Below, one piece after another: positions 4,781-54,354 of a stretch of DNA of 64,000 nucleotides. A program made the translations under genes and the position numbers. The number at the start of each line of letters is the position of its first letter. Position 1 is the stretch's first letter. The stretch lies in NCBI GenBank assembly GCA_022264855.1, contig JABYQU010000018.1, positions 534,729 to 598,728 of the forward strand. The letters run 5' to 3'. The stretch is from Lenzites betulinus (lineage: Eukaryota; Basidiomycota; Agaricomycetes; Polyporales; Polyporaceae). The notes under the pieces were generated by a model that was not told where the DNA came from, made no database searches, and saw nothing but the letters and a program-made list of their open reading frames with translations.

Positions 4781-6034
4781 TCACTCTTCCATAGCTCCTT
4801 CAATATTGAAAACCGGGGCCGTCTCGAGAACTTCGACGTCGTTACCTCCTTGATCAGTGCGGTCAAACCGAAGCTGATACGGCGTAAATGTCAATGCGAA
4901 CATCATGCCGGTAACAAATCACTCACAGCGGCATCCTCTGCGGACCACAAACGCACGACCTCCTTCATCGCGAACCTGACCACAGATCCTGTGCGACGCT
5001 GACGGCGCCCGTATTGGATTTCCGCAAAGACGCTGACCTCCACAAAATCGCCGCGCCGAAGTGCTGTGGGCACTATGGCCATCGTCTGCCCGTTCTCCTG
5101 ACGGGCGCCAGTTTGGATAACGTGGTCGACTCGCCACACCTTTGCGAGTTTCATCGCTTTTCCGCCAGGATCGGACGCTGTACTCAAACGTACAGCAGGA
5201 GCCTGCGTGCCGGATGGACGGACCTGCGAAGTGCTCATGGTCAGCTACCACAAACAATCGTCACCGGAACCGACACACCTTCGTGAACACCGAACGCTCC
5301 AAAACAATATGATCCATGTCGCGCTCTCCCTCCCGTTCTTCGTCCAACTCTGCACCCACCTTCGCCCGAATGAACGCTCGCAAGTTATTCAGAACATCGA
5401 CCTGAGCATTGAAAGGTATGCCCGCTCCTCCACCTGATTCGAGTGTAACGTACTGCACAGCCGCGTGAGCAGAACGGTCCCTCCTAAGCAGGGATGTCAG
5501 ACTATATACGCGAATAGACAAGCAACTATCGTCTTACTTATCCCAGTTTCCCAGAGGCGATATGTTGAAATCCCCCAAAAACCCTTGCAAGACAACAACA
5601 AAGGGACGCATCTGGGCTCGCATGTCGATCGGAAGGACTTGCGGGTGATGAACCAACGCCCTGCTGGACCACGCCACATCGCCATCGTCGTCGCCTTTCT
5701 TCACGACTAGCAAAGAATCGCATAGGCCTTCGTACGACTCCGGTACATACCGCCAATCATCCTCGAGCTGCATTTCGGCGAACGGTCCGCTATCGGAGCG
5801 GCCGAGATTGTTAGGCCACAACGCAGGTGCAATAATGCCTTGGTCTGCCGCGAGATGAGTACGTGAAACGACGATAAGAAGAGCTACTGACGGGTTACGA
5901 CAGACATGATGGAAACAGGATGGTAAAGCGACGCAGTTTCGTCCCCTTTTCGAAGTAATCGCCGTACAGGCACTTATAATGCGCAGAGCCCCGCGCTTGG
6001 CAGATGACCTCCCAAACAAACACGGCCTCTCCGG
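4781..6034 (-). pseudogene. Family I gene interrupted by retrotransposon A (main part)
   Basis: Read on the minus strand, coding sequence enters from the LTR border at 6034 and runs to a TGA at 4781-4783 through about five exons. Clear introns include GTGTGTCGG...TTCGCAG near 5216-5275, GTGAGTGAT...TATCAG near 4870-4925 and a short GTAAGAC...TATATAG near 5500-5535; the one near 5850-5910 has uncertain borders. The C-terminal region repeats the family I pattern (KLAKVWRVDHVI, RRGDFVEVSVFAEI, then RFAMKEVVRLWS). The first six codons, MTSAWP, lie 14 kb away at 20083-20065 on the other side of the retrotransposon, and splicing the retrotransposon and one CCGG copy out restores a continuous frame. 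The insertion therefore separates promoter and start codon from the body. Function unknown. Confidence 0.65.
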
Positions 6035-6803
6035 TGATGCACTCAACCGACCGGTAAGGACGGATGAAAGAGACGGTCGAGAGCCCAGAAGGTCGAGACC
6101 GGGCTGCGAAGACGTCTCGCGGAGCGCGAGGAGATGCAAGGTTCGCGTCGGGTGCCCTTACGGCGGCGCAGTACGCAGAGAAGCGCGGAGGGAGGGGAGG
6201 GGTAGCGGTAAGGCGGAAGGTGCGCAACGACTCAGCTAAGCTGGCGTTTCCGCAGTACGCAGGAGGGTCGCTTCGTAGCCGGTGTCGGCGTCGCAGAAAA
6301 CTCGTAACGCAATCGCAACACTAAACGCTAAATCGCAGGGGTTCGCAGTTCGCAGAGTTCGCAGGGTTCGCAGTTCGCAGTTCGCTGTTCGCAGGGTCGT
6401 CGCTGGGTTCTTCGAGGGAAAGTGAGATTCTGAGCCAAGGGGGGGTCTGATTGTCACGGCCCGAGGGCGTAGGTATTTACAGGGAGAGTCCGCACGTCCG
6501 ATGTCATCAGAAAGTCTCTACGGAAGGCCCATCGCGAAGGGGATCGAGGCCACGATGTGCCGGACGCTAACGCGTAACGCGGAATGCGGAACGTACCATC
6601 GCGCTCCGTACGGACCGGCACCACGGAACGCAAGCCCTCGCGCGCGGATCGGCCCATGCCCTCGCGATACCGCGCGATAAGCCGTCCGCATACGGGCAAG
6701 GCCCCCTGCGCTGCAATGAGTCCTCCGCACCACGAAGCCCTCGGACTCGCGGAAACCGCGAAAAGAGTAGGTCGCGGGCGTTGGCTCGGCACGGGGCGTA
6801 TCA
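6035..6803 (-). repeat. 3' LTR of retrotransposon A
   Basis: 769 bp, TG...CA ends with the short terminal inverted repeat TGATGC/GTATCA. It contains a run of GTTCGCAG-like octamer repeats at about 6338-6400. It is followed on its inner side by the polypyrimidine tract expected for a minus-strand element. Confidence 0.93.
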
Positions 6804-6840
6804 CCTCCCCCCCACTGAGATCTCGACCGTCCCCGGTCGA
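6804..6840 (-). promoter_or_regulatory. 3' polypurine tract of retrotransposon A
   Basis: Directly inside the 3' LTR the plus strand reads CCTCCCCCCC, i.e. a purine run on the element's coding strand, followed by ACTGAGATCTCGACCG and a small inverted repeat (CGACC/GGTCG). This is where plus-strand DNA synthesis is expected to be primed. A close copy lies inside pol at 13597. Confidence 0.8.
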
Positions 6841-6869
6841 CTTCGCCGCGGTCCGCGATCCTTGCCGGC

Positions 6870-6878
6870 GATATAAAG
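6870..6878 (+). promoter_or_regulatory. TATA-like box before antisense gene 1
   Basis: GATATAAAG lies about 50 bp upstream of the ATG at 6927, a spacing that would place a transcript start just before the ATG. It is outside the LTR and points away from it, so the antisense cassette seems to have its own promoter. Confidence 0.5.
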
Positions 6879-6926
6879 TCTCCGCGGGTAGTCCTTGCCT
6901 GTGGCCCCATCCTGACCTCGTACACC

Positions 6927-7615
6927 ATGCTCCACTACCTTGCCGACGTCGAGCTCGCCTTGAACGCGCTTCGCGCGGAAACCTGCCGTTTGGCAATTCG
7001 CCAGCTCGAAGGGCAAGCCGCGAACCTTGAAGTGATGAAGGAGAGCGGGGCCTATAACCTCCAGGATTGGCGCGACGCGCTCAAGGAGACGGTCTTCGCC
7101 GCGGTGAGTACCCTCGTAGAGTCGCCAGAGGCTGTCCTGACGGATCGTGGCTGAAGGAGGCCTGTGTCATCGTCGCCAAAGGCGACGAGCTCCTTCCGCC
7201 GCTCATCCGCCGTGTCGCCCGCCTCCTGGATTCCGAGGACGCGGACCCGACCCTACTCCCGTACTTCCACCGCTGCCTGTTCGCGATGAAACGCGAACAC
7301 GAGGAACGCCTGGTGCAGGCCGCACAGTACCGCCTCGATGTCCTTCGTGCGCGCGCGGAGGCCACCCGTTACGTGCTGACGCGCGCCGGGCCGACCCAAG
7401 TACTGCTCCTCTCGCAATTGGAAGAGGCTTCCGCGGGCGTCGATCGTCTTGTTCGCGACTCCCGACGCGAGCTCGCCGCCTTGAACGCCGCGGTCGCGGC
7501 CGATATGGATCTGCAGTCCCTCCCGATCAGCCTTGTCGCGCCCCCCGATGAGCATACATGGTACGGGATGCCCGACCTCGCCATCTACGACGACGCGATG
7601 GCCGAGGACGAATGA
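6927..7615 (+). CDS. Antisense cassette gene 1: helical protein, tandem paralogue
   Basis: Exon 1 is 6927-7103 (59 codons), then an intron with donor GTGAGT at 7104 and an acceptor at 7156 or 7159, then an exon to the stop at 7613-7615, about 211 aa. The product is rich in Leu, Ala, Arg and Glu and looks entirely alpha-helical, probably coiled-coil in part, with a short acidic tail ending MAEDE. No known domain recognised. Gene 2 next door has the same length, an intron at the equivalent place and matching segments (ALRAETC against CYRAETA), so the two are tandem duplicates. It lies antisense to the retrotransposon between its 3' LTR and pol. A partner role in a complex with gene 2 is possible but not shown. 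Confidence 0.6.
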
Positions 7616-7764
7616 GACTGCAGGAAAGGGGAGCGTCGCTAGAAGTCGGCGCGACAGATGAGGCGGCGAAGGGAGGGTAGTCGGCCTGGTAGATAGATCC
7701 CCTGTACACCTCGAACACCTTTTATCGACCGATCGCAGGCCTGATTGGACGCGCGCCCGAGGGG

Positions 7765-7773
7765 CTATAAGAG
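7765..7773 (+). promoter_or_regulatory. TATA-like box before antisense gene 2
   Basis: CTATAAGAG lies 57-65 bp upstream of the ATG at 7829. An in-frame ATG at 7778 is only five bases downstream of the box and is therefore an unlikely start, which is why 7829 was chosen. Confidence 0.5.
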
Positions 7774-7828
7774 AGAGATGGCGACGATTGAGGAGGGACC
7801 GACACCCGCTGCCTTTCGCCCGCGAAAC

Positions 7829-8531
7829 ATGTCCGCTCACACTCTCCCCTCCGTGGAACGCGAAATCGGCGCCTTATGCTATCGCGCGGAGACGGCCGCG
7901 ATCCGCGAAGTGCTAACGGCGGTCCTCGCTCTGGAGGCCCTCCGGGACGCCGGCTGCGACGAGTCCGCGCGGTGGGAGGAAGCCCTGAGTCGCTTTCAGA
8001 CTACCTGGGTGCGTGTCTTCTTCCTGAGTGCGCCGCCACCCGCCCTTCGCTGACCAGCCACCGCAGGCTCACGCCCAGGCGATAGCGCCTACCTCCTCCG
8101 CGCTCGATGCCCTCTGCGACCGCGGGGATCGCGCCCTCGGTGCCCCGACAGTCCCCACAGGCTTCCAATGGCGCCTTCGCGGATTCGTCCTCGACAGTCT
8201 CCTATTTGCGCAGGAGCGCGAGCTCCAGATCGAATGGCTCCGTCTCGAGACCTGCCGCGTTAGCCTTATCAGCCTCCTCGGTACTCTCACGCCAGCTTCC
8301 CGCGCATCCGGAACGGCGCCGCTACTACTCGCCGCGAGGACCCTGCTTACGCGTGTACGCGAACTCCAGGATTGCCATGCCGCGAACCAGGGGGCTGTCG
8401 AGGCGGCCCGCAGAGCGCAAGAGCGTATCGAGGAATACCTCAGCCTTCCGGGCCTGTCGACGCCGCCTACGGCCGCGCGCGCGCTTGGGAACTCTTCCGT
8501 GGGATCCTATGTAGACGATGTCCTCTTGTAG
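7829..8531 (+). CDS. Antisense cassette gene 2: helical protein, tandem paralogue
   Basis: Exon 1 is 7829-8008 (60 codons), the intron 8009-8066 has donor GTGCGT, a GCTGACC branch point and acceptor GCAG, and exon 2 runs 8067-8531 to a TAG, giving 214 aa. The intron sits at the same codon and phase as in gene 1. The sequence is helical and rich in Leu, Ala, Arg and Glu, with a short acidic end (YVDDVLL). I recognise no domain. Codon use is GC-rich like the rest of the retrotransposon. The two genes plus gene 3 form a head-to-tail series on the strand opposite to pol. Between 8532 and 9265 I see no gene, only the presumed promoter of gene 3. Confidence 0.6.
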
Positions 8532-9265
8532 GCTCCGCACAGCCACTCTGTCGGCAATGACCCCACGGGAGTTCGCTAGCCACCGTGCCAAGGGGAGGGG
8601 TCGGAGGAGGAGCTGTATTGACGCTATCCGGGCGCGATAAATGATAGCGTTCCACCAGGAGGACGAATGGTTTGACGCTGCGCGTATTCCCGCCGATGAC
8701 TCTAAACTCCCGTCGTAAAGGCCTCACCGATCGCACCGTAGGCGTAGTAGCCGGCCGTGACTGACACAGGCGCGCGCGCGTCCGCAGCGTCCCGTTCATT
8801 TGACCGAGTACGGGTACGCCGGGCGTGTCTTCGCGACCCTAAGTCCTCGTGTTGGCCAGCGCCTGCCGCGTGTATCGCCGTAGAGCCTCGGGGCGCGAAC
8901 CTCGCAGGGGTGCGCCGTTGCGCCTCCGCCGCATTGCCTGGCATTTCACCCCGCCAGCCCGCGTATGCCTCTCTAACCTTCCTCGCGTATCCCCGAAGGA
9001 GAGATCCGACCGCGCGAGCTGCCCGGCTGCGTCCGGCTGTTGTCTCGCGGTCTCGCGAACCGTAGCGCCGGCGCGCAGGATTGCCAGTCTGCTTCCGCAG
9101 CCCTGAGCGGACTTGATCGCGTCTTCCGCTGACGTCCAAGGCTCCGGGGCAATCCTCTAAATAGTGCCGTCTTCTCCTCCCTCCACCTCGCGGTCCCCTC
9201 TCGCTCCTTGCCTCTGTCCTCCTCCCCGCTCCTCTAGCTAAGTCGTCCACTGCCGCCACCCCGTA

Positions 9266-11719
9266 ATGTCGAACGACCAACGCCGCGAACAGTCGCGCCA
9301 CGCGCTCGAAGAGGAGCTCCGCATTGCCGTTCTGCCGGATGCCGCCGACGAAGATGTCGAGGAGAGGGCGCGCGGGGCTCTGGCCCAACTGGTGCGCTCC
9401 CCCCCCCTCTTGCCTGGCGGACTCCGCGATCACTGACGCCTCCCTACCCACAGGACGAGCTCGTGCTCCTGACCGAACGGCCAGGCACGGTCCGTCGCTT
9501 CGCCGACGAGCTCTATACCCACTTCGCGGACTTCGCGACGGGCATGGGAGATCCGCCGGCGGACCACCCCGACGACTACCCCTGGGTCCACCCTCTTTTC
9601 GTCCGCGCGTGGGCTCGCGCGACCGGTGCGCCGCTCCCGGAGTCTGTCGTTGCCGCGCGGGCTACTCCAGCTGCCTCGGCGCAGCCCCCTTCGTCGCCCG
9701 CGCCCGTCCCCGTCGCACTTCCGGGCGCCTCCGCGCGCGCAGTCCTTCCACCGCCGGCGCCGCCTCCAGCAAGCGTCCGCGCCCTTCCTCCTCCCCCGAA
9801 CCCACGGCCCCGCCTGCGAAGCAGCCGAAACGCGATAAAGGTAAGGGTAGGGCCCTGCCGCAGGAGGATCCGCCGGCTGCTTCCGCGTCCGAGACCGACG
9901 ACCCCATCGCGTCGATCCCCACACGCGCGTCGACGTCCAAGCTCCTCCCCGTGGAGAAGAAGGCGGGGTACCGCCGCGCACCAAAGAAGAAGACGGTCCG
10001 AATCGAGGCTCCTGCTCCGCGGAAGCGTCGTACCGGCCTTCCCCAGCTCTCGCCGCCGGTCTACCCGCGTAAGGCGCGGCTGCCAAATGATCGCATGAAG
10101 CGCGTAAGTCCCCTCAGCCTCGTTCTCCGTTCGCAGGCTAACAATCCCCTTGGCCCCCCTCCTTTTCGCAGTGCACTGGTTGCCGGGGCCGCGAGCCTGA
10201 CGGTAGCGAAATGCGCTGTATTATGCGCGAAGGGCTCGACCGGTGCGACCGCTGCTGGTACGGCCGGCAGTCTTGCCATCTAATCAACCCGGTCAAGGCC
10301 TCCGGGAAGATGGCCGCGATCCAGGGTCGGGGCTACGCGGACTGGTACCGCTCGAAGGGATACTCGTACGGTGCGCCCTCCCCTTCTATTCTTCTCCGCG
10401 CTCTGCTCGAGCTCCGAACGCTGACTTCCTACTTCGCGTAGCGGCCCCGCCTATCGCCCGCGAGGTCTTCAACGTCTGCCACATCCGCGGCTCCAAGCAC
10501 CTCATCCCGCCCTGGGTCGTCGAGGAGCTTACGCAGGAACTGGGTCGCCCGCCCGTCTATCCGCTCCCTCCGCAAGACCCCGTCGCTTCCGGTACCGAAT
10601 CCGCGAGCGGCGACGATTCCGACCAGGGTTCCGCCCAGTCCGCCGGAGAAGAAGCCAGCGACGCGGAACCGGTAGAACCCCCTGTCGACGCTCCGGTCGC
10701 AGAGCCCCGTCCTCGCCCTCGTCCTCGGCCGGTGTCTGCCGCTGCCTCGACCTCCGTAGCTACCGCGAGATCCTCCGGCGCGGTCGAGAGGGCGTTCGGG
10801 GCTCACGGCTTCACCGTCGGGGTCCAAGGGGCTCCGCCGCTCTCAAAGCAAGGTCCGCCCTCCTCCTCACGCCGTCGCGCAAGACGCGAAACTAGTGCTG
10901 ATGTCGCGATAGCCCCTCTCGGTAGCGGCGCTACGCCCGGCGCCGCTTCGACCTCGCTCGCGTCCGTCGGCGCGACCAGTGGCCAGACTGCCGATGCGCA
11001 GGCGCGTCCGCGAGAGGTACGCGTAGTTTCGCGATCCTTCAGCTGCACTTGCTAACTTCTCTTGCTCTTTGTTTCCATAGGACCTCGAACTCCACCAAGA
11101 GGCGTCGGACGACGGCGACGCCGACGGACCCTTCGTGCCCTCGGCCTCGGCCGAAGATCCTCCCGCCTACTGGCCCGTCAGCGAGGCTAGCTTCCGCGAC
11201 TGCGTCGACACCGAGGTCGAGTGGTTCCGCCGCGAGTTCACCCGCGAGTTCCGCCAGTCCCTGTCCAAGCAGCGAGCCAACCCACCCAACGAGCTCCCCG
11301 GTCTCCCGCTCGACGACGTCGTCGCCTTCCGCATCTTGGCCCAGCAACAGGCCTTGTTCAAGGCGCGGTCCGACGCCTTCGGCACCCTGATGGCCGGGGC
11401 TTCTCGCGGCATGGCCGACTACTTGGAGCAGTCGAGCAAGTTCCTGGACAAGGCCTTCCAACACGTCGACGCCCAGCTCGCTGCGCTGGCGAACGGTTCC
11501 GCCGAGCCGGAGCGCGGTTCCGCTGAACTGGAGCACGGTTCCGCCGCCTTCGAGCGCGAGTCCTCTGCCTTCGCGCGCGGTTCCTCCGTCGACGCTGCCT
11601 CCTCTGCGGGCCCCGTCGCCGGTCCTTCCTCGCTCCGCCAGGTTCCGCTGCCCGGCTCCTCCGCCGGAGCCGGAACGTCCGCGAACGCCGAGTCCGCGAC
11701 TCGCTCCAGTCCTTCTTGA
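9266..11719 (+). CDS. Antisense cassette gene 3: cysteine-rich, zinc-cluster-like protein
   Basis: Six exons join in frame: 9266-9391, 9454-9625, 9685-10103, 10172-10370, 10442-11016 and 11081-11719, giving about 709 aa. The second intron (GTGCGC...GCGCAG, 59 nt) is inferred from a required frame change; the others have clear borders. Residues about 80-240 are basic and Ser/Pro-rich (KQPKRDKGKGR, APKKKTVRIE), likely nuclear. Exon 4 carries six cysteines spaced C-x2-C-x11-C-x8-C-x2-C-x6-C (CTGC ... CDRCWYGRQSC), close to but not the same as a fungal Zn2Cys6 cluster. The C-terminal part is acidic then helical (FRREFTREFRQSL) and ends in imperfect repeats of ERGSAEL type. A nucleic-acid-binding or structural role is possible. 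I recognise no named family. Confidence 0.6.
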
Positions 11720-12040
11720 GTTCCGGAACGCGTTGGCGTCCGAGGAGGTCTTCCGGCTGTACAGGTTAGCTCGCTCTCGTCTTCGCCCGCCGTCGCTCCG
11801 TCCTACTGTCCCTACGTAACCGCACCAGTCCATATAGTTCGTCCGTACACCAGCGAGAAACAGTTAAGCACCGAAATGAGTGTAAGAAAGCCGCGTAGAT
11901 CGGCGGAAGAGGTACGTGTATTGATGAAGTGAAAGGCTTGTAAGTACAAGAAGGGAAAGGGCAGTGGCCCGAAGTCCAAAACGAATGTAATACTAGCTTC
12001 TCGTATCGAAAGCGTCTCGTCCGTAGCGAGCGTAACAGGC

Positions 12041-15000
12041 TTACTGGTCCTCCTCCGCGGACTCCTCTTCCGCGATTGCGTGTTCTGGGGAGAGGATTTC
12101 CGGCTCCGGTACGTCTTCGCCATCGTCGTCGGAGCCCACTAGCTCCGCTAGGCGTTTGTCCGAAATGTCCGCGAAGTTCGGTGGCAGCGGTATCTCCGTA
12201 CGCGCTAGGTAGGGGATCAGGCGAAAGGCACCGACCGCGCGATGCAGAACGGAGCCGTCGAGTTCGCACAATACGTAGGCCCCTCCGCGGTTCCTCGATA
12301 TCACCACTAAGGGCCCGTGTACCGCGCGCGCATCTTGCGATTGAGGGACTTCTCGATCTGCGTGTGTCGCATCAGTACGAGAGCTCCCGCTTTGAAGTCG
12401 TAATCGCGGATCGTGTGCTGGTGGTCGCGCTCGAACTTCCGCGCCGCTTCCGCACGGGCGCGGAATACCTTCGAGTTGAGCCGTACAAGCTGTTCGTGCC
12501 GCCGTTGTAGCTCCACCGCGCGCCGCGCTATGAGATCGCCAGTGCTGATGAGGCTGTCGGGAGCTGGCAAAAGGTACGTTGCCTCTACGATGTCTAGGGG
12601 CAGGACTGGGTGACAGCCTGTGACTGCGAAGTATGGTGAACAGCCCATTCGCTTTCGGACAGTGACCCGTTCCGCCCAGAACGCGAAGTGAGCCCCTTGC
12701 GCCCACTTGTGCTGTTCGCCGCCTACGATCTTGTAGAGGACCTGACGTGTGTCGAAGTGGGAGTGCTCCACTATGCCGTTCGCTTTGGAATTGTAAGGCG
12801 AGATGGAAATGTGGTGGATCTTGAATCGCTTCTGCAGGTCTCGTACCGCGCTGACGAACGCGGCGCCGTTGTCCGTTACGATCTCCGACATCGCCCCCCA
12901 CCGGCAAAGTAAGTCCTGGAAGATGAAGTCCGCGAGGGTCTTCGCGGTTTCGGCGCGTAGCATACGCCATTCTGGCCACGCGGAAACCGAGCATCGCGCC
13001 GCGACTAGCATGGTGAATCCGCTGGACGTCGGCATCTTCATCGTGTCGATATACCACTTCGTGCAGAGTGCGCCAGGCGCCGCCACGACCGGAGGGATGA
13101 GTACCAGACGGTGTTGTCGCGTTTGGCAGATATGGCAGGTCCGCACGTACCACGTCGTGTCTTCGCGCATCGTCGGCCACCAGAATCGCTGTGCGATATG
13201 TTGGAGTGTCGCGTAGTGTCCGCGATGACCCATCTCGTCGTGCGCTGCGACCATGACTGCTAAACGTCTCTCCTTCCATACAATCACCTTGTGCTCGCCA
13301 TGGACGTCCTTCTTCCACAGTCGGCTGCCGTCATAGAAGAAGCCCTGCGCGTACTTGATAAAGGTCGCGTATGCGGAGTCCTTGCTGAGATGTGCCGGTC
13401 GCTGAAGGGTCCTCAACCAGTCCTTCACGTCATTGAGACGTCTGTCCACTCGCGATGCGTGTTCCGAGTAGGGCATCGCCGGTGGGCCGTCCGGTATCGC
13501 GATCTCGTGTGTATGTTCTTCTGTCGCAAATCTGACCTTCGCGCGTGCCTTCGCCCTCGCCGTTCGCTGAGTGGTCGCTTCGGAGTTCGTGGTAGCACCC
13601 TCCCCCTCACTGAAATCTCGACCGTCCTCGGTCGCGTCCACGAGGGCGAAGAGCTGTACGGGTGTCGAAACTGTTCGCGTGCCGCGCGAAGGTACTGGGA
13701 GGATGTGGTGTATGAAACCGTGTACTCGATCGATCCAGTCTTCGAAGTCGTCCAGGTCACTCGCGGGTGCATCCCCAGGCTGCGCGGGTCGTCTCGAAAG
13801 GCCATCAGGGCCATGCGACGTGCCGGGAACGTGAACAAGGTTGAAATGGAAGGTGAGGATGCCTAGGATCCAGCGATTGATGCTCGCGCCGGGCGCAAGA
13901 TCGGGGTTCTGGAGCATGCCTTTGATGTACCGTGCGTCGACCTCCACGATGAGGTTACGAATGCCGACGAGGTAGATCTTGGTCGCCTGCAGCGCACGGA
14001 AAAGGCCATACAGTTCCAGTTTTGGTTGGGAAAACCGCGATTCGCGGTCGTTGAGGGTAATGGAGCCAAAGCGACTATAGAACCGCTTCCGTGGGTCTTC
14101 TTCGTCGCACTGGCAGAGGTGATATCCAACCGCGATGTATGAAGTGTCGACCGCTAGGATTACGGGGGCATGCGAATCGTAGTTGATCGCACGAAGTGCC
14201 GGAGACTCCAGTAGGGCCTGGCGGAGGTCGTTCATCGCGGCGAGTTGTGCTTCGCCGAACTCGAACGGTACGTCTTTTCGCGTAAGCTGTACCAGTGCGT
14301 TCGCGCGTTTCGCGAAGTTACGAATGAAGATCCGCACGACCCCAATGGTCCCCAGAAAGGCTCGTACGTCCGATAGGTCTTTGCAGGGCCCCCAGTTGCG
14401 GATTACCGCGGCGCGGGACTCGTCCGGCAGTCGTCCTTCCGGGGTGCAGCGATGTCCGACGACCATGATTTCGCGGGCGCACAGAATGGACTTGGTTCCT
14501 GAGAAGGTCCCACCAGCGTACTTCATTCGCTGGACTACGCGGTTGATGTTCCCGAAGTGCTCCCACACGAAGCGCCGGATTCCGCGGTTCTGCGGAATGG
14601 TTTCGTAGACTCCGTTCGCGTCGCGATAGTCGGATTCGGGTCCTTTGCAGGGCACATCGTCGATGTAGGGAGCTGTGAGGTCCGGGATCTCTGGGCGCAG
14701 GATATAGGTGACGTCCTCGTGAAAGATCGGCACAGAATTGGACCAGCCCATAGGCAGCGTACAGTGTCTGAGCGCGCCGAAAGGCGTCTGGAAGGTAGTG
14801 AGGTCTCGAGAGGATTCCGCGATTAGCCGCTCGTCGTAGCCCACGTAGAGGTCGAAGATCGCGCCGCAAGCGCGTCCCCCAAACTGTTCCGCGAGGTAGT
14901 CCGGCGTTGGCGGTACCCCTGAGTGTTGGATGGTAACGCGGTTCAGCGGCTCAAGACTGTGGACGATACGCAGCGAGTGTTTGTCCTTCTTGAGGACGCA

Positions 15001-16023
15001 GAACCATCGCGAACGGTAGGACGAATTGGAGGGTTCGTAAACGCCAGCTGCGATCTTTCGCTTCAGCATTTCGCACACCTCCTTGTACAGTCCCGGTGGA
15101 ATTGGTATGTTCTTCTCGACCCACGGAGTATGCGGGAGGACGGGGAACTCGACGGGCGGAAAGAACTCGGCCTTAAAGCAACCGCGTTCTTCATCGCTCC
15201 ATGCGAAGCCATCGTTGTGGAGGCTCATGAAGTGGTGCAGGAGCTTCTTCTCCTCCGGCCATAAAAAGTCGCCGCCGTGAGCCTTGTCGAACGCCTCCTT
15301 ACGTTCCTGAGTATAACGCCCAGTCGGTGTGAACGGTGGAGGCGTCGGGGAGAGCGTGGGCATCGTGGCCAGCGGATCCCCAGTGATATTGCGCTCGATG
15401 CGGAACTGCTCCGGACACGTTCCGAGAACGGCGCGAACCTTCTGTGCGACGGGCTTGTACTTCTTCTTGGACTGGACATAGGCACTTGCAAGCCCTTCCT
15501 CAGTCGAAGCATCCGCCGCTACACCAGGACCGACGTCCGTCCGCGGGGCCTCGCGGAGCTCGTTTGCTACCGTGCGCGAGTATACTACGCGGGAGCCCTT
15601 GTCCGTTCTATAGGAGAACGCGAACACACCGCTGGAGTGGGGATTGGGTTGCGCTGATTGCGAATATCGCGGGGTATCGCCTTCGCTAGTCTGCGCTGAG
15701 CTAGAGAAGGGTTTTACGGCTATAGGCCCGCGAGCAGTCGAGGCTGAGAAGGAAGGAAAGAGAGAGGGAGAAGGACAAGAGTACGAGTCATCGGACGGTT
15801 CGCTTTGTGGGTTTTGGGCGTGGAAATACGCTTTCGCTAGGCTCGGGAGTTGATCGCAGGCGGAGAGATAGAGAGCAGGCATAGGGAGGGAAGGATCGGA
15901 GAGCAGGGTATAAGCGCGAATGCGCGGAACGTCGCCTTCTAGTTCTATGATAACGGCGATGTCGTCACTACCTTCCTCAGATAGTGGGTTCGGGTCGGAC
16001 TGGCTCGGGGTTCGGACGGGCAC
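12041..16023 (-). CDS. pol: Retrotransposon A pol: reverse transcriptase, RNase H, integrase
   Basis: An open frame of 1238 codons begins inside gag with no ATG and is shifted +1 relative to gag over a 47-bp overlap, as expected for frameshift expression. In order: a linker, RT with TTFQTPFGALRH, LPMGWSN and the catalytic APYIDDVPC (about residues 300-480), a Ty3-type RNase H with ILAVDTSYIAVGYHL (about 620-760), a linker that contains the polypurine-like duplicate, an integrase HHCC finger (HRGHYATLQH ... CHICQ, about 890-940), and the DDE core (WYIDTMKMP, VTDNGAAF, SKANGIVEH). The first frame stops at 12307 just after MRARYTGP. Conserved-looking sequence continues in the adjacent frame to 12041 with an acidic tail, so one base seems lost in a G run at about 12311. 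No chromodomain is visible. Confidence 0.88.
13597..13634 (-). promoter_or_regulatory. Central polypurine-tract-like copy within pol
   Basis: The plus strand reads ACCCTCCCCCTCACTGAAAT and continues CTCGACCGTCCTCGGTCG. The 3' tract at 6803-6840 has the same pyrimidine run and the same following 26 bases with two differences. It lies in the linker between RNase H and integrase and is translated in frame. By analogy with lentiviruses and some yeast elements it could prime a second plus-strand start. Confidence 0.6.
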
Positions 16024-18497
16024 GAAATCGAGCCCGTCCCCGCGGAATGGTGGGGATCGTCGCGATTTGTCCAGTATTGGGGCACTCGATGGTGATGGTC
16101 TGGTCCTCGTTGTCGAAGTTCTTGATGACGCTCTTGGTTAGGACATCGAACGGCCTTCCGAGGAGCATGTCGTACGCCGCGTTACGAACGACGTGGACTT
16201 GCAAGTATAGGACAATTGTCGAGACCTTGAACGGCATGTTCCGCACCAAACCGAGCGACTTCTCGACCTCCCCGTTCGCGGATTGCATATTCAGCCGTAT
16301 CGTGGGGTCGTACGAGAGCCCAAGATGGTGGCAGACGTGCTCCGACATCGCGACGATCATGCAACCAGGGTCGACGATCGCTTCTACGTACTCCTTGGTG
16401 TCGACGAGACCAACGATTGATCGCAGCGCATGCGACTCCTTCGCGTTCTTCAGAGGAGGGCTCTCACCAGACGGGGCAACATCCCGAAGGTAGACATCGT
16501 AAAGGTCAGGGAGAACGTAACCGCCAGGCTCCAAAGGTGTTCCGAAGCACGAGAGCTCTTCCGGTTCTGCTCCGTCCGCGGTCGAGGATCCTTCGACGCC
16601 AGCGAAGGCAACGGTCCTTTGGCCGGTGGGTGGGACTCGTCGCGGAGTGACCGCTTCGCGGAACTTCGCGCGGACCTCCGGCGCCAGTGAGAGGAGCTCC
16701 TCCGTTGAGACATTGATCACGGGAGTCTTCATCATACGCTCGAAGACTGCGGCTGCGAGCCCTGGCTGGTAGACTGGTGCAATCGTGCGAAAGGCGCCGT
16801 CGCGCTCCTGTTCCTTCGGCTTCGCGGGCGGCGCTCCAAAGTTGCGTACGTTCGGGGGCGCGTAAGTCGCATCGCGCGCCTTCGCGAAAGGGTGTTCTGG
16901 TAGCGGTGGTTGGCCTTGGTCCGCCGGTGCGCGATACGGCGTCGCTGGGCGTTCCTGTTGTCGCGGCGGCTCGGGCACCTGGTTCTCCGTCGTCCGGATG
17001 GTTGCGTCGTGTACGGGTCGCTCGCGGTCCCCGGTCGCTACCGTTTCGCGGAAACGCAGAGCGGGTTCGAGATGCGGAGGGACCAGTCGCGCGGGTTGCC
17101 CAGTGGCGTTCGCCTTAGGGGGCGCGAAGGCCGCTGGCGAGCGCGAGGGTCCCGGGCGCGAGTCCGCGGAGCGTTCGCGGTTTTGAGGGCCTGGCGACGC
17201 AGGTCGCGATACCGGTCGCGAGCGCGGTTTTGGGAACGAGGGTACCTCCACGCCATCGAAGCGTTCCTTCCCCTTCTTGAGCATGTACAGCTCGTGCTCT
17301 AACTGTTGGATGCGGTCCTCCGCGGTGAACTGGAAGCTACTAATCCACGGTTCGACGTCCTCCGCGATCGCAAATACCATTTGGGCCGCTGGGGCTGCCT
17401 GCGCGGGGTTCTGACCTTGGCGAACACGTTCCCGTCGGTGCCATTCGTAGAGTCGGTCGCGCATAGTCAAACCGTCGAACCCAGGGAGCTGTCGCGGGAG
17501 GAACTGACCAGTAGGGAGCACAATCAGCCCTTCCGGGTTACGCGAGCACTTCCCTTCGCGGATGTCAGTCTCCGCTGCCGGGCAGTTCCGCAGCATATGG
17601 TTCGCATCGCCGCAGTAGTGGCAGAAGCCGTTTGGTAGCGCGTTCGCCGCGAAACCGTTCCCTCCCTGCTGGAAACCTTGCGCTCCCTGCATCATGCCCT
17701 GGTAGTTAGGCGCGGGGCGCGCTCCGGCGTTCGGGGGTCCTAGAAAGCGATTCGCGGTCGCGGAAGCATTCGCATTGTTGCCACCTTGCGCGAGGAGCCG
17801 GAAGAGCGGCGCGAGATCCTCCACTTTGATGGTCGAAGAGTCCGCGGGCGTCGTAGTCGTAGGGGCCGCCGGGGCCACTTGGTACGACGCCGTCGTCGTT
17901 CCGTGCAGGATGAATTTCGCGGCCTCGTAGACTTTGGCCAGCTCGTAGGCCTCGTCTGGATGATGGTCTGGGTCTTTGAGCTGAAGGCGCTGCGCGACCT
18001 GGTCGTGAAGGGGGTTGCAGAGACCGCTGAAGAATAGTCTCGACTGCTCGAAGGTGGACATCTTGTTGTGCTGAATCAGGTAGGACGTCATGGCATAGAA
18101 CGGCCGATAGAAGTCGCCGAGTTCGCTACTGGTGGTGATTGGAGCCTTACGGCGCGACTCGACCAGCTTGTCCACTTCGGCATTGGAGAACTTCCGCGTC
18201 TCGCTAGCGCCGGGGTGCGAAGCGTAGATCGCCGCGCGGAACTCCTCGAAGGTCTTCGTTTGGTCCTTGTACTCCTCCATCTCCTCGTAGAACTCCGACT
18301 CGCTGATCGGCACGTAGCGCGTGACCCACTTCTTCTGTACGTTGGGGTCCGTGATTCCCGCGATCTCGAAGAGGGTCTCGAGGTCCTGGAAGAACCTGCG
18401 AAGGTTCCGCGGCTCGCTAGAGTCAAAGGTGGGCGCGGTCGCATGACCGCGTGCCGGCATAGCACGGCGCATCGCGAAGTTGTTCTGTTCCGCCATC
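15977..18497 (-). CDS. gag: Retrotransposon A Gag with zinc knuckle and protease
   Basis: From the first in-frame ATG at 18497 the frame runs 840 codons to a stop at 15977. Early residues (SSEPRNLRRFFQDLETLF) resemble retrotransposon Gag capsid proteins. A CCHC knuckle CHYCGDANHMLRNC follows at about residue 320. A long Pro/Arg-rich, disordered linker leads to an aspartic protease region with EAIVDPGCMIVAMSEH and later MLLGRPFDVL. The active-site triplet is Asp-Pro-Gly rather than the usual Asp-Thr/Ser-Gly. The same frame stays open upstream of the ATG for about 268 more codons, to just inside the 5' LTR, with no ATG. That upstream part has protein-like composition. Pol is entered by a +1 shift within the last 47 bp. 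Confidence 0.8.
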
Positions 18498-19280
18498 GAA
18501 GAGACTGTAGATGGCTCGCGCGAGTGAGAGGATACGCTGGGGGTTTTACGCGTCGCGTTGCTGTCTGAAGACGATGGCTCTAAAGGAGTGAGGTTCGAGA
18601 CTGCGGATTGCGGGCTACCGTATGGCGTCGCGTAGTTGACGAAGGACTCTTCGGCGCCTTCTGGGAGCGATTCGGGAAAGAGAGGCGGCGACGAGAGAAT
18701 CGCGCGGTGTACGATAGCGTCTGCCGTGTCCTGTAGCCACTGGGTCGCGGACGGATCGGTTTCAAGCGCCTGGATGCTTTTCGCGAGTAGCGAAAAGAGT
18801 GGGTCTACTAGCGCCGGTACCAAGTCCAGTACCAGTTGATTCCGAAGTCGCGAGACACCTCGTAGGAGCTGATCCACGAAGTCTTGTTGTTGAGGAGCAG
18901 TGAGGTTTGACTCGTCGTCGTTCGCGAGCGTCGCGTTTGAGGCCCACTCAGGTAGGGGGGCGGTTGCGATGACTGCGAGGGCGTCCGAGCGGATTCTAGC
19001 TGCAGTGGAGGCGCGGAGCGGAGCAGGTTTGTTCAGAAGTATCGCGGTGCCCGTATCGAGAACAGCCAGTGCCGCACGGAGGAGCGCGTCGATCTGATCT
19101 TCACTGAGGGAGCGCGGAAGCCTTTTTGCGAAGGCGCGGATCTGGTCGGGTAGGAGGGCGCTTGAGAGTGTATCGTTTTGCCGAGACGCGGAACGCGATA
19201 CGCGGTGAATTGCGGGTGAGACGGCGCTATCGCCGTCGAAGGAGGAAGCCGACAAGTGAAACTTGTACACACACCCCCTG

Positions 19281-19292
19281 CGGTGGTCACCA
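19281..19292 (-). promoter_or_regulatory. Probable primer binding site of retrotransposon A
   Basis: On the element strand, three bases after the 5' LTR, the sequence is TGGTGACCACCG. A TGG start a few bases inside the LTR is what a tRNA 3'-CCA end would pair with. I cannot say which tRNA it matches. Confidence 0.45.
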
Positions 19293-19295
19293 GAA

Positions 19296-20064
19296 TGATG
19301 CACTCAACCGACCGGTAAGGACGGATGAAAGAGACGGTCGAGAGCCCAGAAGGTCGAGACCGGGCTGCGAAGACGTCTCGCGGAGCGCGAGGAGATGCAA
19401 GGTTCGCGTCGGGTGCCCTTACGGCGGCGCAGTACGCAGAGAAGCGCGGAGGGAGGGGAGGGGTAGCGGTAAGGCGGAAGGTGCGCAACGACTCAGCTAA
19501 GCTGGCGTTTCCGCAGTACGCAGGAGGGTCGCTTCGTAGCCGGTGTCGGCGTCGCAGAAAACTCGTAACGCAATCGCAACGCTAAACGCTAAATCGCAGG
19601 GGTTCGCAGTTCGCAGAGTTCGCAGGGTTCGCAGTTCGCAGTTCGCTGTTCGCAGGGTCGTCGCTGGGTTCTTCGAGGGAAAGTGAGATTCTGAGCCAAG
19701 GGGGGGTCTGATTGTCACGGCCCGAGGGCGTAGGTATTTACAGGGAGAGTCCGCACGTCCGATGTCATCAGAAAGTCTCTACGGAAGGCCCATCGCGAAG
19801 GGGATCGAGGCCACGATGTGCCGGACGCTAACGCGTAACGCGGAATGCGGAACGTACCATCGCGCTCCGTACGGACCGGCACCACGGAACGCAAGCCCTC
19901 GCGCGCGGATCGGCCCATGCCCTCGCGATACCGCGCGATAAGCCGTCCGCATACGGGCAAGGCCCCCTGCGCTGCAATGAGTCCTCCGCACCACGAAGCC
20001 CTCGGACTCGCGGAAACCGCGAAAAGAGTAGGTCGCGGGCGTTGGCTCGGCACGGGGCGTATCA
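19296..20064 (-). repeat. 5' LTR of retrotransposon A
   Basis: 769 bp and, by eye, identical to 6035-6803 except for one base in the sequence preceding the TTCGCAG-repeat block. It should contain the promoter for the genomic transcript, which runs leftward. Its outer border abuts the CCGG duplication and the first six codons of the interrupted gene. Confidence 0.93.
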
Positions 20065-20083
20065 CCGGCCATGCCGACGTCAT
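20065..20083 (-). pseudogene. Start codon and first six codons of the interrupted family I gene
   Basis: ATG at 20083 followed by codons for Thr-Ser-Ala-Trp-Pro reaches the LTR border. The frame continues on the far side of the retrotransposon at 6034 with EAVFVWEVICQ. The gene's own promoter must therefore lie between 20084 and the divergent gene starting at 20206. Confidence 0.65.
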
Positions 20084-44881: not shown

Positions 44882-45177
44882 TGTAAGAATGACGGGGTAG
44901 GTGCCTTACTGGGCTCCTATCCCTTGGGTACTCTGGTCCGGGCTCGTATTTGGGCTCGGCGTACTCGTAGGGATGGTGGAGGGTAGTAAGGACTTACCCT
45001 CCACCAGGCGCCCGAGTTCCGAATACTCGGGACACCGTACGCGGTGGCATTACATACATGCGGCTATCCGCGCGCTAATATGCGCGCGTGTACGTATGGT
45101 CCGATTCCGTATATTTTAGTTGTGCGTTTCGCACAACTAAAGGATCCTGTAGGAGCGCAGGATACACGCTCCTTACA
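44882..45177 (-). repeat. 3' LTR of retrotransposon B
   Basis: 296 bp with TGTAAG/CTTACA ends; includes a palindromic GCGCGCTAATATGCGCGCG and a GTTGTGCGTTTCGCACAAC hairpin. The polypurine tract follows on its inner side. Confidence 0.92.
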
Positions 45178-45190
45178 CTCTCCCCCACTA
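45178..45190 (-). promoter_or_regulatory. 3' polypurine tract of retrotransposon B
   Basis: The plus strand reads CTCTCCCCCACTA directly inside the LTR, a purine run on the element strand, at the position required for priming of plus-strand DNA. Confidence 0.7.
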
Positions 45191-45520
45191 GACCTGATCC
45201 CAGGTCTACAGATGTATAGTAAAGAATATAAATAGTATATATTTTTTGAGGGCCACAAATAGCAGTGGCCATTACGCCTATGATACACAGAAGTCATCGT
45301 GGCGTCCGACGGTTCATGGTAGGGGTCACCGATAGGTGACCCTGCGTCTGGGTGTACGAACCGTGCTCGACGAGGCTGACGGTAAGAGGCGGCATGCCCG
45401 ATAATATACTCGTCCACCAATTTCGGTGGGGTTATGATTGTTGATTAGCCAATAGTAGTCGACGCAGGTGGGGCAGGCACCTGCGCGGTGATAGTATCAT
45501 GGGCGGTGAACCACATAGGT

Positions 45521-47785
45521 TCACGACGCCATGGACGTAGCATCGTCGTAAGGAGGGGGAGCATCGCCTCCCGGCTCTCCTTGAGTCTCTTGACGAGCCC
45601 CTGCGTCACCCATTTCGGTGACCGGGGCCGTGGTGGTGGGCGCAGCCTCGCCCTCCTCGACCTCCATGTTGTCGTTCGACGCGTGAGCTGGAGGGGGAGG
45701 AGCGGGGTTAGCGGCCGGAGCCTCGTTGGTAGCGGTCGACGTGGGTGTCGCCGCTATGTTTAGGGATTGGGGAGGGGGTACATTGACCACCTCCGATACA
45801 GAGTGTATGCCGGGGAGAGCCGTGATAGGTTCCCCGGGAGTGATTCCTTCGCGAGAGGCGCGGGATCGCGCGGCCGCGTCGCGGTGCTCGTCTGCCCACT
45901 CGATGGTGACGCCTAGTCGGGCGTACCAGAGTGCGACGTGAAACAGGGACAGCGCGTCCTCTGCGAAGCTGCCGGGATATGCCTGCGTGGTGCTCTCGGG
46001 GCTGACAGGGTACTGTCCCGTCAGAATGATGTGACGGTACAGGCCCGGCACTGAGAACAATACGTTCGTCAGCGAGAGCCACCGTCCGCGTTCAGACGGG
46101 GTTACACGGCGCGTCAAAGCGCGGCGACCCATCTGGTGGAACTCGACGTGGACCAGTTGCGGCCGACCGTCGGGGGCGACCGTCATCCACGACGGACGAG
46201 ACGACGGGTAGTTCTTCATCCACTCGCGAAGCTCCTTCGCGGTGGAGTCCAGCCGTGGCTGCGCGAGCTTCACGTGCGGCTGCTGCTTGGAGCGATACGG
46301 CCGTCCTGCAATCGGGCGGTCGTTGCGGGTGGTGGGCATCGGCAGATGCGCCGTGCTGGTAGGGATTAACCCCGGCGGCGTATATGCAGCCGGGTGGGGC
46401 TGGTCTACGGTGGGACCTGTCCGACTGGATGGGCCACCCGAGGGACCAGCTCGGTCGGGGTTCCGCCAGCTGCTCACCAAGACTTGTAATCCCCGCACGC
46501 TGGTCAGTGCGGGGTTGGCGTTGACCTGCGCCAGCAGATGTTGTATGCGATGCCGCGCCTGACCCATGTCAGTGTGCGAGGCATCCAAGATTTGCCGGGC
46601 CTCCTCTTGAGTCATTGGCACGAAGTCGTACCAATGGTTGGTGAGCTTGGGGTCCGAGTTCGCCGGTGCGGCTAACTCGTCGTGGGGCCAGTTGGGGATG
46701 AGCGACTGATGAGAGGCGGCAGTCGTGCCTGTCCACGTCATCGTGCCCGGGCGTGGAGGAGCTGGTACTCCTCGACGCGCGTTCCGCATCACTTGCCGAC
46801 TCGAAATACGCCGCGCCCGTTTGGCGTCGAACGTAGCCTCGTCTTCCGACGAGAAGTCGTAGTCGACCATGGGGTGCGGGGCCGGCTCTTCCCGCGGCGG
46901 CTCGATTCTTTGGGTCTCGGGCGACGTCTGCGTCGGCCGAGTCGTGGTAGACGATCCTTGTCGGAACATGTCAAATCCACGAACGTCCCCTGCTGATATT
47001 GGCGGGGGAAAGCGGGACGACATGTCCTCGCGCCTATCCCCGCGCCGCACCGTCCTGTCCTCGTTGGGACGGCTGTAAGGTTGGTAACGAGCAGTTTCTG
47101 CTCGAGACTCCTGTTGTTTCTTCATATCCTCCAGCTGCTGCTGGAGTCGATCCTTCTCGTCTTGCAGATCGTCGTACCGCTCGCGCTCGTCGTTGCGCTC
47201 ACGACGGTACCGCTCCATCGTCTCACGACGCTCATCTGCGAGCTGCCGTGCCTCCTTCAACTGCTCTTGCAGTTCGGCTATACGCCGCTCGTTCTCCGCG
47301 GCGTCCCCTCCCTCCTTGGAGCGACTATGCTCCTCGAAGTACTGCCAGAACCGGGCTTGAAGCTGAGCTTGCACGCTCATTTGAGCTTCGCGCAGCGATG
47401 GCTCCGACTGCGCGCCCCGAAGATGGCGGATGAACTCGGCGCAGATCACGCAGCCCGTCGTATGCGCGACGAGGAGCGGATGCTCTGCTACCGGTCCCCA
47501 GGCCAGGTTCATGCTCAGTGGCATGATGGGGGCATCCCTGGCATTACGCCCATGGGAGCGACCTGATTTTGGGCGGAGCAAACGCTGAGACCGACGCCCC
47601 ATGTGCTTGAGGGTACGGGGCGGGTACGCGTAGCCGTATCCCGGCTGCGGATATTGATTCGTAGGCGGTGTCTGCGTTGGGGCACCGCCGTACTGGTACT
47701 GGGCCGGATACGGCGCAGGATACCCAGCTACTTGTTGATGCACGGCTGGGGCGGCAGGATCCGGGAAGGCCACGTTTGGTGGCAT
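45521..47785 (-). CDS. Extra ORF of retrotransposon B, coiled-coil protein
   Basis: An uninterrupted 754-codon frame from a true ATG at 47785 (MPPNVAFPDPAAPAVH), in sense orientation between integrase and the 3' LTR, the position of env in retroviruses. It has no signal peptide or membrane helix. The N-terminus is Pro/Tyr/Gln-rich, a CVICAEFIRH segment follows, then about 90 residues of heptad-like coiled coil (LREAQMSVQAQLQARFWQYF to LEDMKKQQES). After a disordered part, the last third is globular (SLTNVLFSVPGLYRHIILTG, TTQAYPGSFAEDAL, ALWYARLGVTIEWADEH). I have the impression that similar proteins accompany many agaricomycete Gypsy elements. Its intactness, in an element with broken gag, is notable. 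Role unknown; the composition argues against an envelope protein. Confidence 0.7.
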   Translation of the reverse strand: MPPNVAFPDPAAPAVHQQVAGYPAPYPAQYQYGGAPTQTPPTNQYPQPGYGYAYPPRTLKHMGRRSQRLLRPKSGRSHGRNARDAPIMPLSMNLAWGPVAEHPLLVAHTTGCVICAEFIRHLRGAQSEPSLREAQMSVQAQLQARFWQYFEEHSRSKEGGDAAENERRIAELQEQLKEARQLADERRETMERYRRERNDERERYDDLQDEKDRLQQQLEDMKKQQESRAETARYQPYSRPNEDRTVRRGDRREDMSSRFPPPISAGDVRGFDMFRQGSSTTTRPTQTSPETQRIEPPREEPAPHPMVDYDFSSEDEATFDAKRARRISSRQVMRNARRGVPAPPRPGTMTWTGTTAASHQSLIPNWPHDELAAPANSDPKLTNHWYDFVPMTQEEARQILDASHTDMGQARHRIQHLLAQVNANPALTSVRGLQVLVSSWRNPDRAGPSGGPSSRTGPTVDQPHPAAYTPPGLIPTSTAHLPMPTTRNDRPIAGRPYRSKQQPHVKLAQPRLDSTAKELREWMKNYPSSRPSWMTVAPDGRPQLVHVEFHQMGRRALTRRVTPSERGRWLSLTNVLFSVPGLYRHIILTGQYPVSPESTTQAYPGSFAEDALSLFHVALWYARLGVTIEWADEHRDAAARSRASREGITPGEPITALPGIHSVSEVVNVPPPQSLNIAATPTSTATNEAPAANPAPPPPAHASNDNMEVEEGEAAPTTTAPVTEMGDAGARQETQGEPGGDAPPPYDDATSMAS

Positions 47786-48203
47786 GGCGGTCGAGGGGGT
47801 GCTGGGCGTCCACTACCATTTCGGTAGTGGCGCTCGGAGGTGCGTTGAGGGGCGCGTGAGGCGGCTGGGTTTGGTCGGGGTTCATGGCGGTGGTGCGAGT
47901 GTTGAGAGCGAGTGGCGAGCGAGGAGTCGTAGTGAAAGCGAGAGAGACAGTGTGAGTTAGGCGAGCGCGAGCTGGCAATTCGCCAGTCGCAGGGTCGCGG
48001 AGCCACGCTAAGTGCTGGCTGAGCTCGAATCTGAGCTGTAATTACGCGACGCGTCGCGCGTAGCACATGTGACCGCGTGCGAGCGCTGCTAGCAGGTGGC
48101 TGTGCTCGCGCCTTCAACGCCGGACGCACAAGTCCTTTTCTCCTTTGACGCCGCACTGGCTACACTCGCCGTATCGGCGTAGCTACTCCCCACCGCACAC
48201 GTA

Positions 48204-54200: not shown

Positions 54201-54354
54201 GTATGTCGGGAACAGCGGCATTCGCTGCCCGACCTTGATGTCGTACCGGAGTTACGACGGTTTCGCCGTCGTTCCCTCCCCCTTCCGGTGACATACTAGT
54301 CATCGCGTAGCGGGTTTGGGGAGGCTCCACCTTGGTGGATTCCACTACGCTGTG
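48204..54354 (-). CDS. pol: Retrotransposon B pol, interrupted by the foldback element
   Basis: Reading starts directly after the gag TAG at 54355-54357 in the same frame, with no ATG. RT carries FSTPFGTFVSEVMQQGDTNA and VYLDDIFVFSD; RNase H has LICDASLFGIGALYGQG; the integrase finger includes HNTLGHLGPQRTS and CGTCHTAK. The frame meets the inserted element after SMDFVGP (51840). It resumes at 49280 with GPFPLSNGYDYVWV; removing the insert and one ATGGACC copy restores one continuous frame. The remaining core (IVSDRDSKFTSKFW, HPQTDGLSERTI) gives the full D,D,E set. The C-terminus is a chromodomain (LVDEIVGHEWQGAKCRFHVR, WTQGDHTWEPYE) ending at 48204, which in chromoviruses steers integration to methylated histone H3. 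The 418 bp to the extra ORF are non-coding. Confidence 0.88.
49274..49280. repeat. Target-site duplication, left copy
   Basis: ATGGACC directly precedes the foldback element; the same seven bases follow it at 51834-51840. The next base on either side differs, so a mutated 8-bp duplication is also possible. Confidence 0.75.
49741..49783. repeat. Subterminal palindrome, copy 2 left arm
   Basis: GGCGACAAAGAACGGGCGAT pairs with ATCTCGTCCGTTCCTTGTCG CC around GATATC. The right arm has the matching palindrome at 51333-51374. Confidence 0.8.
50019..50067. repeat. Inner palindrome, copy 2 left arm
   Basis: CGTCGAGGAGGGTGGGTAGT pairs with ACTACCCACCTTCCTCGACG around TAGTGAGACT. The counterpart in the right arm is at 51047-51095. 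Confidence 0.75.
51047..51095. repeat. Inner palindrome, copy 2 right arm
   Basis: Inverted counterpart of 50019-50067 with the central bases TCTCAC instead of TGAGAC read on this strand, i.e. the same sequence in the opposite orientation. Confidence 0.75.
51333..51374. repeat. Subterminal palindrome, copy 2 right arm
   Basis: GGCGACAAAGAACGGACGAG, then ATATCGCCCGTTCTTTGTCG CC; it is the inverted partner of 49741-49783 and itself folds back around GATATC. Confidence 0.8.
51834..51840. repeat. Target-site duplication, right copy
   Basis: ATGGACC, identical to 49274-49280. Codons on both sides of the insert join as Val-Gly-Pro-Phe-Pro when one copy and the insert are removed. Confidence 0.75.

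Follow-up and report, generated by a model that had tools for sequence, protein, structure and literature searches.

Whether genes with introns can be a lasting part of a long terminal repeat (LTR) retrotransposon is the question raised by element A, a Ty3/Gypsy-type element in the window analysed here (the whole stretch of 64,000 nucleotides, positions 534,729 to 598,728 of contig JABYQU010000018.1). Between pol and the 3' LTR of this element, a cassette of 5.2 kb (6804-12040) carries three genes, g1, g2 and g3, on the plus strand, opposite gag-pol. Comparison of copies and of sister families makes it probable, at roughly 85%, that a Ty3/Gypsy clade has long carried this antisense three-gene cassette, which would be kept by selection, move with the element, and use its own promoters and splicing. 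An initial annotation of the DNA had described about 5 kb of opposite-strand genes at this place, three in number with exons joining in frame, two of them preceded by TATA-like boxes, inside an element with near-identical LTRs. All of this holds, with 1 mismatch in 769 between the LTRs and the boxes where Table 1 places them.

Cassette genes and introns

Six introns are supported in the cassette. All start with GT and end with AG, are 53-71 bases long, and possess a CTRAY branch site 13-30 bases before their 3' ends. Introns this short with such branch sites point to a fungus, probably a basidiomycete. A strict intron signature (donor, branch site and acceptor within 45-90 bases) matched nine times on the cassette strand, five of the six introns among them; 200 random sequences gave 0.89 matches on average and at most 8. 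Outside the window, the GT-AG ends were kept in every intron read (7/7 for g1, 5/5 for g2 and 8/8 for g3), and no intron-less copy was present among the copies read for cassette splice sites. Likewise, six of seven g1 copies outside the window are open to the usual stop, the other (C12b) having a premature one, and g1, g2 and g3 are all open in both of the other copies that are readable complete (C43 and C87). The first two genes look like paralogues, judging from their pairwise match (E 7e-4) and their common intron.

The initial annotation had spoken of eight introns and itself listed seven junctions. One of these, 9626-9684, has no CTRAY branch site, and the region reads through in the aligned copies C43, C40 and C87:378k. 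Near 9.72 kb the window copy differs in length by one base from these same three relatives, so g3 is either broken in the window copy or affected by an assembly error; on this alignment the apparent intron is an artefact of the one-base frame break.

The orientation of the cassette may be what allows its introns to persist. Transcripts of each gene would start at the gene's own plus-strand promoter and be spliced, and the genomic RNA, made from the opposite strand, would carry the introns backwards. Because they are backwards there, they would stay in the genomic RNA, and reverse transcription would copy the cassette with its introns intact. The same logic had been put forward in the initial annotation, and it fits the finding that the strict intron signature has no match on the genomic-RNA strand of 6804-19296, nor on either strand of gag-pol (the LTRs were not scanned). 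Antisense placement relative to the copied RNA would then be a plausible way round the intron loss expected in retroelements.

Coding selection

The cassette was compared with five diverged relatives from the same genome (C40, C52, C87:378k, C32 and C55). In all five, the third codon position is the most changed (p 1.9e-8 to 1.3e-21); for example, substitutions in C40 number 100, 81 and 220 at codon positions 1, 2 and 3, of 1146 each. The ratio of nonsynonymous to synonymous substitution rates (dN/dS), computed without the stretch around the g3 frame break, is 0.11 (C40) and 0.15 (C52) for g1, 0.35 (C40) for g2, and 0.15-0.21 for the N-terminal part of g3, before position 10700. Beyond that position, in the C-terminal part, it reaches 0.42-0.48, and in g3 of the sister family B it is 0.19-0.20. 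Insertions and deletions not divisible by three are mostly intronic. Within exons, +6 and +1 at 9688-9713 in C40 and C87:378k correspond to the g3 frame break; C40 has a further one-base event at 10714, C52 a four-base event at 7077, and C55 events of 34 bases and 1 base. By these measures, g1, g2 and g3 are real genes under coding selection.

The pattern also bears on a different view of the cassette, in which it mainly makes antisense RNA that pairs with the genomic RNA, acting on copy number or through small-RNA silencing, and its proteins matter little. Cassette RNA would indeed be complementary to part of the genomic RNA, and PMC7264820, in the sections drawn on here, discusses roles of this kind for antisense transcripts in plant elements. 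However, the codon-position bias, the dN/dS of 0.11-0.35 across g1, g2 and the N-terminal part of g3, and the conserved intron phases point to selection on proteins, which makes this view improbable as a main account, even if antisense-RNA and protein roles could coexist.

Copies of element A

The genome searched comprises 37.4 Mb in 108 contigs, and matched pieces shorter than 80 bases were left out of the printed copy comparison (BLAST). Scored matches number at least 40 for the LTR (from 50 candidates), at least 12 for the g1 region and at least 14 for the g3 region. Six pol-bearing copies of element A match at 99-100%. Two of them, C39 and C52, reach the contig end before the cassette site; the contigs of the other four (C19, C43, C87 and C40) span it, and the cassette is present in each. 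The search for copies lacking the cassette that the initial annotation had called for thus returned none among the four, and its claim that the genes travel with the element is borne out: as far as these copies tell, the cassette genes move with element A.

Sister families and public relatives

Family B shares 71-78% identity with A over aligned gag-pol DNA. Its copy at C51:60500-75500 carries homologues of g1, g2 and g3 in A's order, on the strand opposite pol, and three further B copies that were fetched (C98, C81 and C12:385k) carry cassette genes, some of them frame-broken. Specifically, the frame is broken in g2 of C98 and, as modelled, in g3 of C51 and C12:385k, and g3 of C81 is open over the stretch translated (C98 was left out of the family-B g3 translation). 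A g1-like match lies on the opposite strand within 12 kb of seven of the eight pol matches classed as B. At the protein level, identity to A g1 is 26-32% for g1/g2, and g3 of A and g3 of B share 27%. Despite this, the g1 intron follows codon 59 in A and codon 57 in B, the g2 intron follows codon 60 in A and codon 59 in B, always in phase 0, and the introns flanking the cysteine exon of g3 have matching places and phases in the two families.

Remnants extend to family C, which is 71-75% identical in aligned pol DNA. A copy at C24 possesses the cysteine exon followed by a donor at A's place, and at C12:82300-88300 a g1-like gene lies opposite pol; of its several possible donors, the best-looking gives a first exon of 59 codons. 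Taken as a whole, since B has the same intron positions and C has remnants, the cassette predates the split of the families; on this comparison it has been carried since before A and B diverged and is not one-off cargo. Finally, three public proteins are 88-99% identical to g1 exon 2. One of them, P0001, aligns with the two g1 exons at 88 and 91% identity, and between these, at the intron place, lies a diverged stretch that is read through in frame. Another public protein has a 64% match to the cysteine exon (L020 was left out of the protein alignment with public relatives, having stops in frame).

Several copies are rearranged. A pol-less derivative of A, 98-100% identical per aligned piece, is found at C12 (L015/L016), C74 (L026) and C86 (L027). 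All three are without window interval 11482-16514 (most of pol) and have a common break in g3 at 11213-11220, with about 2.8 kb standing in place of pol; g1 and g2 are still open in C12, and the contigs of C74 and C86 end inside or near g3. C40 (L017-L019) is a mosaic, most of its gag-pol matching at 98.6-99.1% and its cassette pieces at 86-91%. Similarly, when the family B copies C98 and C81 (L032 and L033) are compared with C51 (L029), g1 and g2 differ by 0-4% and g3 by 17-50%, depending on codon position. Such mosaic copies suggest that modules have been exchanged by recombination. Lone g3-like fragments, at 73-84% DNA identity in pieces, lie at C32:955.3-957.2k (L023), C55:172.7-174.6k (L024) and C87:378-379k (L025), with no gag or pol match in the 10 kb fetched around each; they are remnants, or possibly cases of host adoption.

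Origin and maintenance of the cassette

It might be supposed that the cassette is cargo from which the element gains nothing, with the host as one conceivable target, and the lack of any domain match in its proteins would suit that idea. Selection has nevertheless persisted while the families multiplied independently, and the pol-less derivative at C12 has kept g1 and g2 open, although a host target is compatible with both observations; cargo of this kind is accordingly an unlikely explanation. Less likely again is that a single lineage recently captured host genes by transduction or received a nested insertion. Intron-bearing genes look host-like, and the lone g3-like fragments at C32, C55 and C87:378k stand apart from gag and pol. 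Against this, the family B module has the same order and orientation at 26-32% protein identity, and the module is therefore old; the four spanning A copies all have the cassette; and the lone fragments are partial. Moreover, C87:378k also matches window positions 8649-8982 and 9242-10057, and its match to sequence immediately upstream of g3 is what a remnant of the element would show. A nested insertion or a single-copy cargo is contradicted by the spanning A copies and the family B cassette. Lastly, long open frames are frequent on both strands of this GC-rich DNA, and one of the reported introns did prove spurious. Chance open frames with chance splice sites are nevertheless negligibly probable, being ruled out by five of five codon-position tests, with introns common to diverged families and whole genes in independent copies besides.

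The reading of an old, selected and mobile antisense cassette has observations to reckon with, and the following weigh against it. We infer transcription and splicing of the cassette from sequence, and the g1 intron, having an AAG acceptor, fails the strict signature. In the window copy g3 is broken, by damage or assembly error. Near 12300-12340 both the window copy and C87 change frame before the last part of pol, whereas C43 keeps a single frame; in the window copy this change is likewise damage or assembly error. C40, C52 and C55 are partly decayed by insertions, stops or frame changes, and the C-terminal part of g3 appears weakly constrained. Among the sister families, the eighth B pol match has no g1-like neighbour within 12 kb on the opposite strand, the B g3 model has no counterpart of A intron 4, and a family C copy (L036) has no recognisable cassette in the 6 kb fetched beside it at C65. 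No Pfam family lies above threshold for g1, g2 or g3; the predicted fold of the cysteine exon is of low confidence, with a predicted local distance difference test (pLDDT) score of 51.9, and its single Foldseek match in the PDB (E 7.1) is at chance level.

Predicted proteins

The most conspicuous feature of the proteins is the set of six cysteines in g3, which are invariant in all six aligned rows from families A, B and C. Their spacing is CX2CX(11, 7 or 6)CX8CX2CX6C, the second gap being 11 in A, 7 in B and 6 in C, and basic stretches can be recognised by eye. The CX2C...CX2CX6C order resembles the fungal Zn(II)2Cys6 cluster, of which the consensus spacing is CX2CX6CX5-12CX2CX6-8C; the family C spacing, CX2CX6CX8CX2CX6C, fits this consensus, whereas the second gaps of A and B differ from it. 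The Pfam model PF00172 does not match the cassette proteins at E up to 10, and a protein search with g3 gave no match at E<=0.01 among 7986 candidates scored. For g2 there is one sub-threshold match, to CitG (E 0.05). Exon 2 of g1 is predicted to form long helices (pLDDT 70.6, predicted template modelling score 0.48, 4 sequences), and none of the 190 Foldseek matches of this model in the PDB reaches E<=0.001. Tentatively, and with odds of perhaps one in three, g3 would be a nuclear zinc-cluster-like DNA-binding protein with g1 and g2 as small helical partners, the three serving to regulate, protect or de-silence the element.

Family-specific motifs

A DNA-binding role invites attention to short motifs within the elements. 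Family B has 169 TGCGAY sites in 12.4 kb. Their density is 12-13 per kb in gag, pol and the cassette and rises to 22 per kb in the LTR, whereas six other stretches show 0.2-1.2 per kb. In the cassettes of three more B copies it is 11.6-14.9 per kb. The motif-bearing loci are L029, L030 and L032-L034 for B, and window 6035-20064 for A. In a codon-shuffle test that fixed the protein and codon usage (codon-pair context was not kept, and one gypsy element served as control), TGCGAC occurs 45 times in B gag-pol against 9.7 expected (z 13.5), and TCCGCGA 14 times in A gag-pol against 3.7 (z 6.8), the top 6-mer of A being GCGGAA (z 6.5). The motifs of B score lower in A gag-pol (TGCGAC z 1.7, TGCGAT z 2.4), as do those of A in B gag-pol (TCCGCGA z -0.8, GCGGAAC z 2.7), and the core CGCGA is raised in both (z 4.6 and 6.3). 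The maximum over all 6-mers in the control gypsy element, which lies in the window and in which no antisense cassette was noticed, is z 4.3. Family B strongly, and A more weakly, is thus enriched in its own short motif beyond codon constraints.

Other results temper this picture. In a whole-element Markov test the top 7-mer of B reaches z 21.4, and that of A z 7.5, which is not above the 8.5 of the control region and weighs against the motif idea. So does the conservation of motif sites between C51 and C81, which is weakly above background (10/20 vs 129/491, p 0.036). The gag-pol motif sites number 64, of which 56 could be aligned to A. Residues were identical at 13 sites, and at 7 of the 13 the motif was missing in A; a synonymous gain of the motif therefore rests on few sites. 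The family C test gave z 2.5 on 306 codons; the frame used runs from stop to stop, and its beginning may lie outside genuine pol.

VANDALs are DNA transposons. In the portions of PMC5735166 used here, VANC of Arabidopsis VANDAL is an anti-silencing protein that binds family-specific motifs in its own transposons. The likeness consists of an element-encoded, fast-changing accessory protein and a family-specific short motif enriched in the element; however, VANDAL motifs are described as tandem repeats in non-coding parts, with binding shown (PMC5735166), whereas here gag-pol is also strewn with the motifs and g3 is a putative binder. The enrichment is a hint of a candidate self-recognising regulator. 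It is a speculative further step, and a rather unlikely one, that in each family g3 recognises a motif of its own, distributed along the whole element via codon choice (TGCGAY for B, a TCCGCGA-like one for A and perhaps CGCGCG for C), so that protein and motif co-evolve as a private self-recognition or anti-silencing code. If true, the code would be analogous to VANC/VANDAL, independent of it, and written through coding regions. In any case, the family-specific motifs offer a direct handle on whether such genes are self-recognition or anti-silencing factors.

Comparison with known antisense genes

Antisense accessory open reading frames (ORFs) are already known. As described in the parts of PMC7264820 and PMC11963269 consulted, plant Ty3/Gypsy elements of the Retand lineage have them between pol and the 3' LTR (Grande gene23, RIRE2 and Retand TRP28), so that accessory-gene position, orientation and a long region between pol and the 3' LTR are common to this lineage and element A. 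The same accounts report that gene23 has its own promoter and that the Retand antisense ORFs occur in nearly all recently active copies, with possible DNA binding. Neither paper uses the word "intron" in its main text. Element A differs from the plant lineage in having three genes, two of them apparently paralogous, and six introns in conserved places; TRP28 (PF04195) was not matched by A g1, g2 or g3 or by B g3 in Pfam.

HBZ of human T-cell leukaemia virus type 1 (HTLV-1) overlaps other viral genes, whereas the cassette of element A is a separate block. HBZ and other retroviral antisense genes are nonetheless alike in being protein genes opposite the genomic RNA, with an antisense promoter near the 3' LTR, a comparison by description of the cited passages and not by homology (PMC7264820, PMC11963269). 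Boty/BcGypsy1 of Botrytis cinerea, a gypsy element of a fungus, is described as carrying an extra gene in antisense, brtn (PMC8365987, PMC7264820); the portions cited name one antisense gene, vs three here, and mention neither introns nor whether the gene is conserved among families. The likeness is again one of description, not sequence.

No spliced multi-gene antisense cassette was found in the literature searched (one open-licence library), and as far as that literature shows, the three-gene spliced module with conserved introns is a new form of a known arrangement. Its persistence through long divergence indicates that a lineage of LTR retrotransposons can retain several genes together with their introns. 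In plants the function of antisense accessory genes is described as unknown; such genes now occur in a probably fungal setting that allows simple tests of their expression and binding.

Structure of element A and other features of the window

The coordinates of element A and its cassette are collected in Table 1. Its Pfam matches above cut-off are, in order, Asp_protease_2, RT_RNaseH and Integrase_H2C2, which is the Ty3/Gypsy order; the integrase core rve scores below its cut-off, and RVT_1 was not reported for element A in the Pfam search. With paired LTRs, a target duplication and RNase H before integrase, element A is a Ty3/Gypsy LTR retrotransposon (Metaviridae). No relative of its pol protein was confirmed among viral contigs.

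Table 1. Features of element A and its antisense cassette (window coordinates)
Feature	Position	Strand	Remarks
Element A, Ty3/Gypsy-type retrotransposon	6035-20064	-	
Target duplication, CCGG	6031-6034; 20065-20068		Left and right copies
3' LTR	6035-6803	-	769 bp; ends TGAT...ATCA; 1 mismatch to 19296-20064
Polypurine tract	6804-6815	-	Adjoins 3' LTR; judged by eye
g1 TATA-like box	6870-6878	+	TATAA at 6872, 55 bases upstream of g1 ATG
Gene g1	6927-7615	+	211 amino acids; exons 6927-7103, 7157-7615
g1 intron	7104-7156	+	GT...AAG; position matches g2 and family B
g2 TATA-like box	7764-7772	+	TATAA at 7766, 63 bases upstream of g2 ATG
Gene g2	7829-8531	+	214 amino acids; apparent g1 paralogue; exons 7829-8008, 8067-8531
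g2 intron	8009-8066	+	
Gene g3	9266-11719	+	729 amino acids in C43 and C87; frame-broken near 9.72 kb in window copy
g3 intron 1	9392-9453	+	
Proposed intron	9626-9684	+	Rejected
g3 intron 2	10104-10171	+	Phase 0; also in family B
g3 cysteine exon	10172-10370	+	CX2CX11CX8CX2CX6C
g3 intron 3	10371-10441	+	Phase 1; also in family B; donor place common to C
g3 intron 4	11017-11080	+	No counterpart modelled in family B
pol (RNase H, integrase)	12041-16137	-	Main open frame 12307-16137; rest to 12041 in another frame in window copy
gag-protease open frame	15977-19303	-	Stop to stop; aspartyl protease; 8-base overlap with 5' LTR edge
Likely primer binding site	19280-19292	-	TGG at start; by eye
5' LTR	19296-20064	-	769 bp

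Four-base flank repeats were present in three of the four A copies checked (C19, C43 and C87, not C12), and the flanks of the family B copy C51 have no exact match. The duplications flanking element A are four bases long with a central CG (CCGG, CCGC and ACGG in the window, C43 and C87), possibly reflecting a target preference.

A second LTR element occupies window positions 44882-57792, with 299-base repeats at 98% identity, gag-pol, and an extra ORF of 763 amino acids that follows pol in sense orientation. No antisense cassette was noticed in it, without a close search. Inside this element, at 49287-51827, are inverted repeat arms, of 653 bases at 83% and 217 bases at 91%.

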